Shown here piece after piece: positions 7,793 through 62,840 of a stretch of 64,000 nucleotides of DNA. The translations under genes and the position numbers were made by a program. The notes beneath the pieces were generated by a model, which saw only the letters and a program-made list of their open reading frames with translations, did no database searches and was not told the DNA's origin. Every line of letters begins with the position of its first letter. Positions within the stretch are counted from its first letter, which is position 1. Origin of the DNA: Blastocatellia bacterium (GTDB lineage Bacteria; Acidobacteriota; Blastocatellia; Chloracidobacteriales; Chloracidobacteriaceae); the NCBI GenBank assembly GCA_019695185.1, contig JAIBAN010000003.1, positions 1-64,000 of the forward strand, in the 5' to 3' direction.

Positions 7793-8353
7793 ATGTCATC
7801 ACTTCCGCAAAAACGACTTTTTACCGTTGCCGAATATTACCGAATGGCTGAGGCCGGCGTTCTTACCCAACAGGACCGGGTTGAGTTGATTGAAGGGGAA
7901 ATCGTTCGTATGAGCCCAATCGGAAGCCGCCATGCCGGACGCTTAAACCGGCTGCTTGCCCGTATCAACGCCCAATTGAATGAAGAAATCATTGTGAGTG
8001 TTCAAAACCCGCTACGCATCAGCGATTTTTCCGAACCGGAGCCGGACATGGCGGTGCTCAAATATCGGGAGGATTACTACACGGAAAGTCATCCAACCCC
8101 GCAGGATACGCTGCTTGTGATTGAGCTTTCAGACACAACCCTGGCCTATGACCGGAAAACCAAAGTTCCGCTCTATGCAAGGGCAGGCATTCCGGAAGTT
8201 TGGATTCTGGACCTCAACACTGACACCATCGAAGTTTTCAACGAACCGGTGCGGGGCAAATACAAAACCCGAAAATCATTTCAGCGCGGGGAAACACTGG
8301 TCTCGCCGCAACTTCCGAAGCTTCACCTGACAGTTGATGAAATTTTTGGCTAA
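7793..8353 (+). CDS. Uma2 family protein (PD-(D/E)XK-like fold)
   Basis: 186 residues, starting at the ATG that gives the usual Uma2 N-terminus (FTVAEYYRMAEAGVL). Conserved features are VELIEGEIVRMSPIG, the PD element EPEPDMAVL (Asp85), VIELSDTTLAYDRKTK (Glu111, Asp120, Lys122/124), Tyr128 and GIPEVWILDLN. Uma2 proteins have a restriction-endonuclease-like fold, are often present in many copies per genome, and have no settled function. This is one of three in the window and is the shortest, lacking the C-terminal coiled coil of the other two. Its stop is 22 bp before the next gene. Confidence 0.88.
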   Translation: MSSLPQKRLFTVAEYYRMAEAGVLTQQDRVELIEGEIVRMSPIGSRHAGRLNRLLARINAQLNEEIIVSVQNPLRISDFSEPEPDMAVLKYREDYYTESHPTPQDTLLVIELSDTTLAYDRKTKVPLYARAGIPEVWILDLNTDTIEVFNEPVRGKYKTRKSFQRGETLVSPQLPKLHLTVDEIFG

Positions 8354-38396: not shown

Positions 38397-39251
38397 ATGC
38401 CCGAATCAGTGCAAACCGTTGCGGAAACTCCGCCTGAAGTTCAGGAAATCATTGACCGGTTGCCTGATACGTCTCAGATCTACAGCGAAGAACCGGAAGC
38501 AACCGGACTTTCGCCCGAAGTCCAGGAAATCATCAACCGGCTGCCTGACACTTCACAAGCGTACAGCGAGGAACCCGAAATGGAGAGTTCACTTCATTAC
38601 CTGCAATTGTTGTTGCTCGTGACCAGTCTTGAATGGTTATGGCGGGAGCAGGAAGACTTTTTTATTGGTGCCAACCTCAGCATTTATTTTAGTGCCAAAC
38701 AACTGAAAACACGTGACGTTCGAGGACCGGATTTCTTTCTGGTCAAAAATACGGAAAAGCGCCCCCGGAAATCATGGGTGGTATGGGAAGAGGGAGGCCA
38801 ATATCCTGATTTGATTATTGAATTACTCTCGGCTTCAACCGCCAAAACCGACCGGGAAACCAAAAAGAAACTGTACCAAAATCGGTTTCGAACCCCGGAA
38901 TATTTCTGGTTTTCACCTGAAACTCTTGAGTTCAAAGGGTTTCACTTGAAAGACGGAGCATACAAACCAATTCGGCCCAATGCACAAGGTCACCTCTGGA
39001 GCCAGGCACTGGATTTGTACCTGGGAGTCCAGGACGGCAAACTGAGGTATTTCACCAGTACCGGCCTGTTGGTTCCAACGCCGGAAGAAGCTGCAATCCA
39101 GGAAATCCACCGGGCACAGGAAGCATTCGCCCAAGCGGAACAGGAAGCCCAACGGGCGCAACAGGAAGCTCAACGGGCACAACAGGAAGCTCAACGGGCC
39201 GAAAAACTTGCTGCTCAACTGCGGGCTCTGGGAATTGAACCTGAAGCCTGA
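38397..39251 (+). CDS. Uma2 family protein with N-terminal duplication and coiled-coil tail
   Basis: 284 residues (AGGAGG 7 bases before the ATG at 38397). The N-terminus holds two copies of a 27-residue block (PPEVQEIIDRLPDTSQIYSE at 12-31 and SPEVQEIINRLPDTSQAYSE at 39-58). The Uma2 core follows: RGPDFFLVKN (the PD), LIIELLSASTAKTDRETKKK and RFRTPEYFWFSP. It ends in a Glu/Ala/Gln coiled coil with AQQEAQRAQ repeats and LRALGIEPEA. The Uma2 protein inside dnaE ends with LRALGIDPEQ, so the two share their tail. Function unknown; the fold is that of PD-(D/E)XK nucleases. Confidence 0.85.
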   Translation: MPESVQTVAETPPEVQEIIDRLPDTSQIYSEEPEATGLSPEVQEIINRLPDTSQAYSEEPEMESSLHYLQLLLLVTSLEWLWREQEDFFIGANLSIYFSAKQLKTRDVRGPDFFLVKNTEKRPRKSWVVWEEGGQYPDLIIELLSASTAKTDRETKKKLYQNRFRTPEYFWFSPETLEFKGFHLKDGAYKPIRPNAQGHLWSQALDLYLGVQDGKLRYFTSTGLLVPTPEEAAIQEIHRAQEAFAQAEQEAQRAQQEAQRAQQEAQRAEKLAAQLRALGIEPEA

Positions 39252-55403: not shown

Positions 55404-56723
55404 CTATTGAAACGCCACTTCACAGCCGGTGCAAATCTGGCGGATTTCGGTGACCAGTTCCGGGCTGGCTTTCACCCGGACAAAACTGTTGGGGCGTACC
55501 ACCGCAATCGCCCCGGATGAAAGCTGGACTTCAAAGGTCACAGCGCATTCGCCCCGATGCCGGTCAAAGAGTCCATAAAGTCTATCCACCCGTTGCTCAT
55601 TCAATTGACCTGCCGGGAAGTACAGCTTCATGGCGGCGGCGGAACGTTCCCGCAGCCCGGCGAGCGGCACCACTTCGTCAGCAATGATTTTCGAGGGACC
55701 GTCTTCCGTAAATTCCAATTTTCCGGTCACCAGCACGGCCTGCGTATCGGAAACCCGTCCGTTGAGTTTTTTGAAGGTTTCCGGCCAGGCAATGACTTCG
55801 ATGGAACCCAGTTCGTCTTCCAGGGCAAAAACACAAAACCGGTCGCCTTTTTTGGTGGTTTTGACCACGTATCCCACCACCATGCCTCCCATTTTGACAA
55901 TCGTGCCGGGTGCATTGGAGGCCAGCGTTTCAAACGAAGCCGAGGCGAATTGATTGAGCAGTTCGCGGTATTCGGCCAGCGGGTGTCCCGTGATATAAAA
56001 CCCCACCGTGGCTTTTTCACCCGCCAGTTGTTCTGCCGGAGTCCAGTCGGCGACCTGCGGAAGCGCCGTTTCCTCGCTCGGCATGGTGGCTTCAAAAGCA
56101 CCAAAAAGCGAAACCTGCCCGCTTTGCCGGTCGCGTTGGGCGCGGGCTCCGTTTTCAATGGCACCGTCAATGGCGGCAAATTTCTGCGCCCGTGTGCCGG
56201 GAAGCGTATCCATTCCCCCTGATTTGATGAGGCTTTCCAGCACCCGCCGATTGAGCGACCGGCTGTCCACCCGTTCCGTCAGATTGTGGAGCGAGGTAAA
56301 CGGCCCCTCCTTTTCGCGGGCTGCCACAATGGCATCCACGGCAGCTTCGCCAATGCCCTTGATGGCCATCAAACCAAAACGGATTTTGTCGCTTGTCGAA
56401 GTAAACGTGTGGTAGCTGACATTCACATCCGGCGGCAGAATCTCGATTCCGGCGGCGCGGGCCCGTTCGATGTATTTGGCCACCTTGTCGGTGTTGTTCA
56501 ATTCGTTGGAAAGCACCGCCGCCCAGAAATGCGCCGGGTAATGGGCTTTCAGATAGGCCGTATGATAGGCCAGCACGCCGTAACAAACCGAGTGGCTGTT
56601 AGCCGTCAACACGCCGTTCGCAAGGTAGTTGTGGTGGGGTGCCGCCATTGTCATGTTGTAGGTCTTTTCCACCCCAACCGGCGTCACCCGTTTGATTTTG
56701 ACTTTTTCAAGGTGCATACGCAT
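55404..56723 (-). CDS. dnaE: DNA polymerase III alpha subunit, C-terminal part with split-intein C-half
   Basis: 439 residues. Residues 1-42 are a split-intein C-half; the extein begins at Ser43 (SHSVCYGVLAYHTAYLKAHYP) and continues to the C-terminus: NDKVAKYIERARA-type fingers, GIGEAAVDAIVAAR (helix-hairpin-helix), the OB-fold (VKMGGMVVGYVVKTTKKGDRFCVFALEDELGSIEVIAWPE) and the tau-binding tail. This gene alone cannot make an active polymerase: the PHP and catalytic palm lie in dnaE-N upstream. Its ATG overlaps the stop of the Uma2 gene (TAATG), so its translation depends on ribosomes leaving Uma2. Joining to the upstream product requires protein trans-splicing. Confidence 0.95.
   Translation of the reverse strand: MRMHLEKVKIKRVTPVGVEKTYNMTMAAPHHNYLANGVLTANSHSVCYGVLAYHTAYLKAHYPAHFWAAVLSNELNNTDKVAKYIERARAAGIEILPPDVNVSYHTFTSTSDKIRFGLMAIKGIGEAAVDAIVAAREKEGPFTSLHNLTERVDSRSLNRRVLESLIKSGGMDTLPGTRAQKFAAIDGAIENGARAQRDRQSGQVSLFGAFEATMPSEETALPQVADWTPAEQLAGEKATVGFYITGHPLAEYRELLNQFASASFETLASNAPGTIVKMGGMVVGYVVKTTKKGDRFCVFALEDELGSIEVIAWPETFKKLNGRVSDTQAVLVTGKLEFTEDGPSKIIADEVVPLAGLRERSAAAMKLYFPAGQLNEQRVDRLYGLFDRHRGECAVTFEVQLSSGAIAVVRPNSFVRVKASPELVTEIRQICTGCEVAFQ
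56598..56723 (-). other. Split-intein C-half (IntC) of dnaE
   Basis: 42 residues: a basic start (KVKIKRV), block F (TYNMTMAAPHHNYLANG) with its His, and the closing LTAN before the +1 Ser. The residue before the final Asn is Ala; His is canonical, but the cyanobacterial Npu DnaE intein has Ser there and works. Net charge is positive (six Lys/Arg against two Glu), opposite to the N-half. Confidence 0.93.
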
Positions 56724-57436
56724 TACATCTGTTCCGGGTCAATTCCCAAAGCCCGCAGTTTTTCCTTCAGGCGCTCATTTTCCTGTTGCGCGGCTTCCTT
56801 TGCCTGTCGTTCAACTTCGGCACGTTCACGCTCGGCTTCAACTTGTGCCAAGGCAATTTGGTGTTGAGCTTCAAGTTCCTGATAGGTCAAAAAACACCTT
56901 CCATCAGGCCGGTGAATGATAAGGGTTTCCGGAGTCCGTTCAAACCGGATGCCCAAACGCGGGCTGACCCAATCAGCCATCACCGGAATTTTTACCAATC
57001 GTTCAGTTTCCCGCAGCCAGCCCCAAATTGTGTTGGTGTCCGGGTCATAAATGTAATACTCTGCTACCCCGTGGCGCTCATAAAATGCTTCCTTGTCAAT
57101 CATTTCACGAACTGTGTTCCCAGGAGAGAGAATCTCAAACACCACCTGCGGAGCAACGCCCTCTTCTTCCCATTGTTTATAGGAACCACGATGTCCTTTG
57201 GGCCGGCCAAGTGCAACCAGCACATCCGGTGCCACCCATGTTTTAACTTGCCCGCGCACCGGATACCACAACAAGTCACCCGCCACAAAGTCATGGGGCA
57301 ACAGAGCGTCGAGCCCTTCTTTGATTGTCACAATCCATTCGAATTGTTTGGTGTTGTCGGCCATCGGTACCCCATCGCTTTCCGGATAGTATTCCGCCTC
57401 ATCAATGATTGGTGGAGATTGCGTCAATGCACCCAT
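56723..57436 (-). CDS. Uma2 family protein inserted between split-intein halves of dnaE
   Basis: 237 residues from the ATG at 57436 (GTGAGG 6 bases upstream). The ORF is open further but that part overlaps the dnaE-N reading frame. Uma2 core: FVAGDLLWYP, VAPDVLVALG (PD, Asp71), VVFEILSPGNTVREMIDKEAFY (Glu101, Asp114, Lys115, Tyr119) and GVAEYYIYDPDTNTIWGW. It ends in a coiled coil (about 185-230) and LRALGIDPEQM. The fold belongs to the PD-(D/E)XK nuclease class, and the residues that would form the site are kept. It lies 28 bp after the IntN stop, and its own stop overlaps the dnaE-C start. I infer a homing-type or gene-maintenance role from this position; catalysis is not known for Uma2 proteins. 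Confidence 0.93.
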   Translation of the reverse strand: MGALTQSPPIIDEAEYYPESDGVPMADNTKQFEWIVTIKEGLDALLPHDFVAGDLLWYPVRGQVKTWVAPDVLVALGRPKGHRGSYKQWEEEGVAPQVVFEILSPGNTVREMIDKEAFYERHGVAEYYIYDPDTNTIWGWLRETERLVKIPVMADWVSPRLGIRFERTPETLIIHRPDGRCFLTYQELEAQHQIALAQVEAERERAEVERQAKEAAQQENERLKEKLRALGIDPEQM

Positions 57437-57464
57437 AACTGCCTCACTTTTGATGATTGCCTGG

Positions 57465-60400
57465 TTAAACCGCCGCCCCAGCCTGTGCAGGCTGTGCGCT
57501 CTTTCCCGCCAGCGTGGTTTCACCTTCTGCTGCAATCTGCAAATCCAAACCTTTTTCCAGAATTTCCCACAACGGGAGAAATCCCTGTTCCGTGTAAAAC
57601 TTGTGGTCAAGGGTGCAACGGAGCGTCCGCCCGTCTTCCAGTTCGATTTCGACCACTTCCTTTTCGCCTGTTTCAAAAGCTTCAACGATGTCGTTGACGA
57701 AAATCTGTGAGCCGTCAAAGCTGAAGGTTTTGGTGGTGGCGACTTCCCGGCTGGCAATCTGGGACAGTGTCACCTGCGCGCCGGTTTCGGCATCGGTAAT
57801 CGGTGTGTCTCCGGTCAAGCACTTATTAAAGGCATAATCCGCAAAGCCTTCGAGCGATTGCCAGAGCTTTTCCAGCTTGTCGCGGTCATGCCCGCGTTCC
57901 TCGGCCTGCTTGAAGAACTTGGCTTTGTGGGCGTCCAGTTCCTCGCGCTTTTTCTTGCCCATCGCGCGGCGCACAAGGTCGGCTTCACCAAGCGAATAGC
58001 CGGCCAGCCGCTGGAAGATGGCCATGATTTGTTCCTGATACGTACAGTTGTGAAGTACGATGTTATTGCCAACGAAATTGTGGATGCCTTCGACTGTAAT
58101 GTCGTAAACCAATTCAATGCCCGCTGGTTTGATTGAGGTAATCTTCTCCCAACGAATATTAAGGTTGTTTCTGGTGTGTTGAAGCAGTAAAGCTTCAGCC
58201 ACGGAACGCACAACCTGGACTGCGATTCGTGGAATTTGCTTGTTTTTGGGTCGAAAATGTTGCGGATTGAGTCCGTAAGCCCGTCCTAATCCTTTCAATG
58301 AGCCAACCCAGACTTTTGACAGTTCCTCAAAAAAGACTTGGCGCGAGACGGAGTCTTTTGATTCGACGCTTCCCAGCGGCGGAGCCGGTACAGATTTTGA
58401 GACCAAATGCGGGACGATCAAGTCCATAAATCGTGAAAGATCATAGACACTCACTTGGTAGGCAGCCGTTTCACCTTCTCGCCGATCACTTTGATAATGG
58501 GAAGTATAAATGACTGAGCAAATCCCCAAACGGAGCAACAGCGTTTGGACATCCAGGGCCAACTGTTTGGAAATGGTTTTATAGTGGTAGATTTTTTTTC
58601 CAAGATGTCCGTCACAATCCCATAACGAAGCCAGAAAGAAGGCAATACAGCGGGAATTTAACCCAAAGACGAAACCCGGAATAAATTTATTCTCAGATCG
58701 GCACCCTCCCTTTTGAAACTTCATTCCCAATTCACGTAGCCAAGCCAGCACTGAGTTTGGTTCGTGATAAAACTTTTTCTCTGTTCCGACCACACCAACT
58801 CGTGTCACACCGCGAAGCTGCTGAAGCATTCTGGCTTCAACCCGCTCAAACGCCTGCAAACAACGCTGATATTCTTTGATGAGCGCTTCGTCTTTGGATA
58901 TGAAATCACAACAGGCTGTCGAACTTAACGAACCATCCGCGATTAAGTAAGCCAGGACCCGAAGCTTTCGAAGATCATATTCTTGCTCATTGGCGACCAG
59001 AATTTGACGCGGTGTAGCAATAAAATCCCCAGGCTGCAACTCTTTCACCGATTGCCAGCCGGTTTCCGTGAGAACTTGGTGGTCATCTGTGAGTTTGACT
59101 GAGGTGCCATTGTGTAACTGCACCTCGACCACCTCACGCAAGCCGTTTGCGAAGAAGTGGGTAACTCGTGCACGACTCGGCTTTAACTCTGAATCAACCC
59201 CTTGTATGTAAAAAGCCCCTACCTTGTCTTTGAGTTCATCAATTCGATACCGATTTCCGGTAATTGCATCGAAAACTACGGTTTCCCCGGTCACACACAC
59301 ACCAAATGTGTTTCCCAGAATGTCTTTTAATTCAGGAAAATCAAACTTAACCTTTCGTCTGCCATGACGCCGTTCAATGTAATCATCCACCATTCCTGAA
59401 TCGAGCGGGCCGGGCCGATAGAGCGCATTCAAGGCAATAATGTCATCCAAACCATCAGGCTTGAGCCGCCGGGTGATTTCCTTGATGCCGTCGCCTTCAA
59501 ACTGAAAGATGGCTTCCGTTTCGCCGTCGGCAAAGAGTTTGAGCGCCGCCGGGTCGTTGAACGATACGGCGGAGAGGTCCGGAGCCTGTCCTGTTTCGCG
59601 GCGGATGTTGGTCAGACAGTCCTCGATGATGGTGAGCGTCGTCAGGCCCAGGAAGTCCATCTTGAGCATTCCGGCTTTTTCGAGGTCGTTCATGTTGTAC
59701 TGCGTCGCCAGCACCTCGATTTCCCCGCCCCGCTCCTTGTCCTTGGCCTTGGTTTTGAAGACCGGCACCAGTTCATGGACGGGTTTCGGCGAAATCACGA
59801 CTCCGGCGGCGTGAATCGAGGAATGCCGCGAACAGCCCTCCAGCCGTTGCGCCAGTTCAATCATTTCCTTGAAGCGGGGGTCTGAATCGTGGGCCTGCTT
59901 GAGTTCCGGAACGGTCTTGAGGGCCTCGGCAATCGGAACGTTGCGCCCGCGTTGCGGCGGCGGAATCATCTTGGCGATTTTTTCAACTTCCTTGTACTCG
60001 ATTTCGAGCACCCGCCCCACGTCCTTGATGGCTGCCCGCGAAGCCATCGTCCCAAAGGTGGCGATTTGCGAAACGTTTTCCCGCCCGTAGAAATTCCCCA
60101 CGTAATCAATCACTTTGCCGCGCCCGCGCACACAAAAGTCCACGTCAATATCGGGCATTGAGACGCGTTCCGGATTGAGGAACCGTTCAAAGAGCAAATC
60201 AAACTGAATCGGATCCACATCGGTGATTTTCATGGCATAGGCGACACAGCTCCCCGCAGCGGAACCCCGCCCTGGCCCAACGGGAATGCCGTTTTCCTTT
60301 GCGTAGCGGATGAAATCCCACACAATCAGAAAATAGCCGGGAAAGCCCATCTTCTTGATGGTGTCAATTTCCAGGTTGAGCCGTTCGGAATAGGTTTCAA

Positions 60401-61391
60401 GGGGATATTTGAGCGCCCCGGCCTCGGCCAGCGGACGCAACTGGACCATCCGCTCCTCCAGCCCCGCACGGGCCACTTTTTCAAAAAAGCTGTCGAGGGT
60501 TTCCCCTTCCGGCACCGGATAGGCGGGCAAATGGTTTTTGGCCTTGGGAAACTCAAACTGGCACATTTCAGCAATCCGCATGGTGTTGCGGAGCGCCTCC
60601 ATGTTCTGATTTTCAAACAGATGCCACATCACTTCGGCGGATTTCACGTAATGCCCCGGACTATAGTGCATCGAAGCCTGATTGATAGTTCGTCCGGTTT
60701 GCAGGCACAACAGCGCTTGATGTGCCCGAAAATCGTCTTTCGTCAAAAAATGGGCGTCGTTGGTGACCACGAGCGGAACGTTCAACTTGCGGGCGATGTC
60801 AGTCAACCCGGCATTTACTTTGGATTGCTGTTCCTCGAACCCGTCGTGACACTGAAGCTCCAGAAAATAATTTCCCTGCCCGAAAATTTCGTTGTACTCG
60901 CCAACTTCACAAAGTGCCTGTTCCGCTTTTTCCCGCAGGATGAGCGACGAGGGCACGCCCGACATACAGGCCGAAAGCGCCACCAGCCCTTCGCTGTGCT
61001 CGGAAAGCAACTCCTTGTCCATCCGGGGTTTGTAGTAATAGCCCTGGGTGTAGGCCAAGGAACTGAGCTTGACGAGGTTTTCATAGCCCTTCTGGCTTTT
61101 GGCCAGCAGAATCAGGTGGTTTGAACCCTTTTCGCCTTCGGTGTTGGTGCCCCGGTCATGGCGCGAACCACGTGCCACATAGGCTTCCATCCCGACAATC
61201 GGACGGACCCCGGCCTTTTTCATGGCGTTATAAAACTGCATGGCACCAAACATGTTGCCGTGGTCGGTGGCAGCCATGGCGGTAAATCCAAGCTGGGCCG
61301 CATAGTCAGCCAAGGCGTCGTGCTGGATGGCTCCGTCAAGCAGGCTGTAATCCGTATGAAGATGCAAGTGGACAAATTCTTTGCGTGACAT
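57465..61391 (-). CDS. dnaE: DNA polymerase III alpha subunit, N-terminal part with a full intein and a split-intein N-half
   Basis: 1308 residues. Extein 1 (1-698) has the PHP domain ([22 protein letters not shown]) and the catalytic palm ([15 protein letters not shown] with two Asp; the third Asp in [13 protein letters not shown]). It is interrupted after GNTFGV by a 417-residue intein. Extein 2 (75 residues, [36 protein letters not shown] to FADYAFNK) is followed by a 118-residue IntN and a stop. With dnaE-C, the exteins total 1170 residues, a normal DnaE. No break in the polymerase sequence is apparent at either junction. It is the first gene of a run continuing through Uma2, dnaE-C, GNAT, thrC and DHH. 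Confidence 0.95.
   Translation of the reverse strand: [1308 protein letters not shown]
57468..57821 (-). other. Split-intein N-half (IntN) of dnaE
   Basis: 118 residues starting [14 protein letters not shown] at Cys1, immediately after extein FNK. It has the block B TxxH ([12 protein letters not shown], Thr70-His73) and ends [18 protein letters not shown] plus ten residues, then stops. It is strongly acidic (21 Asp/Glu against 8 Lys/Arg), as expected of an N-half that captures a basic C-half. It contains no endonuclease domain. Confidence 0.93.
58047..59297 (-). other. Cis-splicing intein with LAGLIDADG endonuclease in dnaE
   Basis: 417 residues, starting Cys1 ([18 protein letters not shown]) and ending [14 protein letters not shown] before the +1 Cys (CTYQEQ). 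Block B is [15 protein letters not shown]; block C/DOD motif 1 is [11 protein letters not shown]; block E/DOD motif 2 is [13 protein letters not shown]. Both acidic residues of the nuclease site are present, so it may still home. The insertion point is in the conserved YQEQ motif of DnaE. Confidence 0.95.
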
Positions 61392-62491: not shown

Positions 62492-62840
62492 AAATTTTGG
62501 GTTCCTTGATGAAAGTGGGTGCATTGGGAGTGTGCGGGAAAGAGCCCTTCGATTCAAGTTTCACCCTGACAAGTTGCTTTTTCAAAACCCCCTCGAAGTC
62601 TGGGGCATCACAAATCTGACAGAGTGACAGAGTGACAGGGTGACAAAATTTTCTTGACGCTCAAGACTCCCAAGACTCCCAAGACTCCCAAGACTCCCAA
62701 GACTCTCAAGACTCCCAAGACTGTTTGAGAAGCAGCAGGGTGAAATGGTACAAATGCGCCTCTCACGGACCTGATTGCCGGACGTGACAACTTCACCCAA
62801 AACTTCTGTTCTTCACTGACACTTCACTCAATAAAACCCT
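62492..62840. other. 349-bp divergent intergenic region, largely tandem repeats
   Basis: It lies between the secreted protein gene (minus) and pepA (plus). It contains AGTGACAG heptamers (about 62616-62645) and CTCCCAAGA nonamers (62660-62722). The remainder, about 120 bp before pepA, is unique and should hold its promoter. No ORF is credible. Confidence 0.7.
62616..62722. repeat. GTGACAG heptamers followed by six to seven CTCCCAAGA nonamers
   Basis: GACAGAGTGACAGAGTGACA is followed, 15 bp on, by a run of CTCAAGACTCCCAAGACTCC-type units with one degenerate copy. It is one orientation only. It mirrors the mixed heptamer-nonamer elements at 4.87-4.98 kb and 47.3-47.5 kb. Confidence 0.85.

Follow-up and report, generated by a model that had tools for sequence, protein, structure and literature searches.

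The window analysed here, a 64,000-nucleotide stretch (positions 1 to 64,000) of contig JAIBAN010000003.1 from a Blastocatellia bacterium, carries dnaE as two minus-strand genes with a uma2 gene between them; ORF translation gave the order dnaE-N with IntN, uma2, and IntC with dnaE-C. The dnaE-N ORF (61391-57465, minus strand, 1308 aa) shows Pfam and NCBIfam matches for the PHP domain, the polymerase domain and a LAGLIDADG intein that is contiguous, and finally for the N-terminal half of a split intein, IntN (57465..57821, minus strand, 118 aa). It is followed by uma2 (57436-56723, minus strand, 237 aa; PF05685, E 9e-15) and by a third ORF (56723-55404, minus strand, 439 aa) that comprises IntC (56598..56723, minus strand, 42 aa) and the dnaE-C extein with its HHH and OB-fold domains (55404..56597, minus strand; PF14579 and PF01336). 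The gap of ~740 nt between IntN and IntC is filled by the intact uma2, whose stop codon overlaps the IntC start codon in TAATG. The first, contiguous intein (58047..59297, minus strand, 417 aa), which the first-pass annotation did not mention, is complete, bears LAGLIDADG motifs (PF14890, PF14528) and is inserted at FGV|CTYQEQ; it is shared by two of the related genomes described below, G003 and G033, and is absent from G014 and G025. A tandem array with the 9-base unit GACTCCCAA occupies an intergenic position in the window (62647-62731).

The two ends of the second intein are distributed over the two dnaE ORFs. IntN starts with CLTGD at 57821, and Cys1 and the TxxH region (TLDH) lie together on the dnaE-N ORF, where TIGR01445, the profile for the intein N-terminal region, has its best stretch at aa 1191-1267 of the product (NCBIfam). 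On the other ORF, IntC ends in HNYLANGVLTAN, with the terminal TAN directly followed by the +1 Ser at 56597; this combination of a terminal Asn and a nucleophilic +1 residue was recognized by eye and by homology. No TIGR01443 match was listed for the IntC piece, which was assigned from its translation and its 60-82% identity to relatives, and IntN is 57-60% identical to four relatives. The break therefore falls inside an intein inserted in DnaE at FNK|SHS, and another ORF parts its two halves. The first-pass annotation had described a fractured dnaE with a split intein and a free-standing gene in the break, which the ORF positions and family searches bear out, and recomputation returned the same 1170 aa for the joined exteins and the same charges for the halves (IntN -13, IntC +4). 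Only one dnaE was detected in the genome: the window assembly (8.33 Mb, 99.7% complete) gave a single PF07733 match and no second intact copy.

The protein encoded in the slot is an ordinary Uma2. It matches PF05685 at 55 bits (curated cut-off 27), and the predicted fold of its AlphaFold model (mean pLDDT 83.7) matches 9y1l, 6okh, 1wdj and 3ot2, the last two being the matches that place it in the restriction-endonuclease-like D/E/K fold of Uma2. P70, D71, E101 and K115 are invariant in 17 sequences of its subfamily, and DUF820 has been classed as PD-(D/E)XK (PMC1913061). With a Uma2 gene that has no LAGLIDADG match, the window slot contains no ORF of a homing-endonuclease family. The uma2 ORF is intact, and dN/dS is well below 1 where dS is unsaturated (it is saturated against several paralogs), a rough sign of purifying selection; given an intact ORF under apparent constraint, the slot Uma2 may have a function.

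The window genome (G000) contains 15 Uma2 matches; besides the slot gene, the window itself has two other Uma2 genes, both on the plus strand (7829-8335 and 38589-39245). The closest paralog of the slot gene (69%) is found on another contig (C122; locus L088, 6950-7621) flanked by def, encoding peptide deformylase, and by an FGE-type gene; the junction shows a TGATG overlap. In G003, which belongs to the sister genus, def and the FGE-type gene (L108) are ~30 nt apart without a Uma2 gene. Members of the slot-Uma2 subfamily occur in 6 of 396 sampled genomes of the phylum, at unrelated, scattered loci, none of them adjoining dnaE, and some copies show a similarly tight overlap with the next ORF. 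From the paralog in a junction that is empty in G003 and from the scattered copies, we conclude that this subfamily disperses and enters gene junctions generally, the dnaE slot being one such junction. LAGLIDADG_3 matches in long frames were also seen in G000 (C81:82091, C17:23714, C11:109984, C95:76355, C69:1873 and C7:143537), none at a listed Uma2 gene, and the genome appears intein-rich.

When an IntN profile was searched over 162 genomes of the class (match threshold E below 1e-30), the intein was found in 15, the window genome included. Its presence at the identical site in 14 other genomes argues that the arrangement is not due to chance. The split form occurs in 13 genomes besides the window genome, two-contig assemblies among them, and the content of the slot varies. 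Five of the 15 carriers (G025, G033, G147, G150 and G151) have a free-standing LAGLIDADG gene there (PF14528 matches). This gene begins, out of frame with IntN, at an ATG within the 3' end of the IntN sequence, and its stop overlaps the IntC start; both overlaps are identical in all five. An AlphaFold model of the LAGLIDADG protein reached a pLDDT of 65.8, too low for a fold search. In G014, the slot gene is deleted to a 22-codon remnant that keeps the first and last codons (MPRTAWNKRLTPEIEERITRYL and the stop), and the halves are still split. G003 has a contiguous intein within a single frame of 1702 codons. Seven Chloracidobacterium-type genomes have their dnaE halves far apart (in G004, for example, on one contig at 1.12 Mb and 2.56 Mb), which resembles the full trans-splicing of cyanobacteria, though at another site; at the corresponding loci (L033-L039 and L062-L068), each distant dnaE half has its own intein half. 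Uma2 occupies the slot in the window genome only (1/15). The homing-endonuclease analogy drawn in the first-pass annotation is thus borne out by the five relatives with a LAGLIDADG gene in this slot, but not by the window slot, and among the 15 carriers of the class the genome search that it proposed for related fractured dnaE genes with an adjacent Uma2 returned none besides the window.

No viral carrier of the LAGLIDADG gene or of IntN was found, and elsewhere in the phylum the LAGLIDADG gene was found only in the dnaE slot of G025 (396-genome sample, without the other four carriers). The intein is absent from G017, G021, G029 and G040. The site reads FNR|AHS in G021, G029 and G040 (L043, L044 and L045), with Ala (GCG) where the intein needs a +1 Ser, Thr or Cys and the surrounding motif otherwise conforming to the conserved FN(K/R)SHS; this is possibly an intein-resistant allele.

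The trees of exteins and inteins disagree. In the extein tree, G000 and G003 are paired (100/99) and adjoin the Chloracidobacterium-type genomes, with the three genomes of family f4 far off; in the intein tree, the f4 inteins stand beside that of G033 from family f3 (90/91) on short branches. The f4 DnaE exteins are very distant from that of G033 despite the nested inteins. This conflict, together with the patchy presence of the intein in f3, indicates that the form with the LAGLIDADG gene has moved horizontally. In G003, the tail of the contiguous intein matches the start of the endonuclease region of G014 and G025 in register at 20-21 of 40 nt, a level that about 0.3% of background windows equal; the likeness is weaker against the G033 endonuclease start, and against the f4 copies it does not reach significance. 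This in-register likeness suggests, without proving, that the G003 intein was re-fused.

Alternatively, the Uma2 insertion itself could have split a mini-intein that was contiguous, as the one in G003 is, without a LAGLIDADG gene ever having occupied the slot; since G003 is the sister, the ancestor of G000 and G003 could have had such an undivided intein. Consistent with such a course, no LAGLIDADG trace was detected in the window slot with position-controlled windows, and a second Uma2 copy did enter the def-FGE junction. Two candidate traces, a frame likeness of RLGRRFNQAII to RLTPEMEQLII and a gapped test (12/1000 against G014), both failed in the position-controlled windows. However, split inteins are also found in the Chloracidobacterium-type genomes, which belong to the same family, so the split state is probably older; the G003 tail hints at re-fusion; and two working halves would have to result at once from inserting a gene into an essential ORF. 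We thus consider a break made by Uma2 unlikely, and the relatives lead us to infer that the window slot once held a LAGLIDADG gene.

A role of the slot protein in homing or maintenance, as put forward in the first-pass annotation, is not supported. A Uma2 of the PD-(D/E)XK type could have replaced the earlier nuclease, cutting intein-free dnaE and so favouring the fractured allele; it sits in the same slot as the relatives' LAGLIDADG gene, its fold and motif residues are kept, and its ORF is intact and constrained. Such a nuclease would be expected to recur at one insertion site across lineages, but Uma2 was seen there once, its nearest paralog stands at an unrelated junction, and nothing indicates that the Uma2 form has spread horizontally. 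No tie between the Uma2 subfamily and the dnaE site was found in the 15 related inteins or the 396 sampled phylum genomes, and the idea that Uma2 regularly accompanies this intein was rejected. We regard the nuclease role as improbable; if true, it would give a Uma2 protein a biological role for the first time. That the locus is an assembly error or a set of decayed, non-functional dnaE pieces seems hardly credible: the assembly is a draft of 222 contigs and the exact arrangement is known from one genome only, but all ORFs are intact and tightly spaced, no other dnaE was found, and the split intein recurs in other genomes.

We therefore favour, as the probable explanation, a fractured dnaE of the kind that combines a split intein with a homing endonuclease, which would bear the footprint of a LAGLIDADG gene and has its slot now held by a likely Uma2 passenger. 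Most likely, a once contiguous intein became split through an intein-borne LAGLIDADG gene lying out of frame, and this gene would be what is still in place in the five relatives. In the window lineage, the slot is held by a member of the dispersing Uma2 subfamily, which also entered another junction of the same genome. The passenger is most likely co-transcribed with dnaE, with dnaE-N, uma2 and IntC-dnaE-C on one transcript, and the minus strand of the slot showed no terminator-like site; translation of IntC-dnaE-C would be coupled to that of uma2 through TAATG. IntN (-13) and IntC (+4) are predicted to associate and trans-splice at FNK|SHS to give the 1170-residue polymerase, while the first intein would splice in cis. 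Coupling to the essential dnaE would shield whichever gene sits in the slot against frameshifts and nonsense mutations.

One bacterial class thus displays, in one essential gene, every stage of intein presence: an empty site, split with an endonuclease, endonuclease deleted, slot reused, halves apart, and contiguous (perhaps re-fused). With this range, how split inteins arise and what becomes of them can be tested directly. DnaE split inteins from outside the cyanobacteria, at a different site, are also possible protein-ligation tools, and Uma2 genes entering gene junctions provide a comparative case and a lead on a numerous, unexplained family.

Fractured genes that combine split inteins with homing endonucleases encoded by free-standing genes were reportedly described by Dassa et al. 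in 2009. The published endonucleases of fractured genes are reportedly Vsr/EDxHD-like and come from environmental or phage sequence. Five relatives here resemble those systems in having a gene broken within an intein and an endonuclease gene between the halves; unlike in the published systems, their slot gene is LAGLIDADG and lies in bacterial chromosomes, and the window departs further in that its slot gene is Uma2, a candidate passenger rather than a member of a homing-endonuclease family. The work of Dassa et al. is cited in PMC3229294 and PMC12350094. The family of the slot gene is likewise familiar, as the window Uma2 shares with Uma2 (DUF820, PF05685) the profile match, the PD-(D/E)XK-type fold, the motif residues and the many copies per genome, a multiplicity also reported for Thermosynechococcus (PMC9403480); unlike described Uma2 genes, it lies between split-intein halves. 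PMC9403480 covers the split intein and Uma2 separately, and no literature joining Uma2 to a split-intein slot was found in a search that had most subscription papers outside its reach. The abstracts of papers that mention both inteins and Chloracidobacterium contained no report of such an intein, and a fractured dnaE in this group is not reported in the searchable literature, most subscription papers again lying outside it.

The host protein is the same as that of the cyanobacterial split DnaE inteins (Ssp, Npu), and the closest solved relatives of the joined IntN and IntC are DnaE inteins (best E 4e-13). The cyanobacterial split site, Y|CFN, is presumably three residues upstream of FNK|SHS. 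The insertion point therefore differs from the cyanobacterial one; the halves, moreover, flank a gene instead of lying far apart, except in the Chloracidobacterium-type genomes. The dnaE of Desulfonema ishimotonii is similarly non-cyanobacterial, intein-bearing and encoded in two adjacent frames, but according to its authors no split intein divides it (PMC6390638), whereas the break in the window lies within one.
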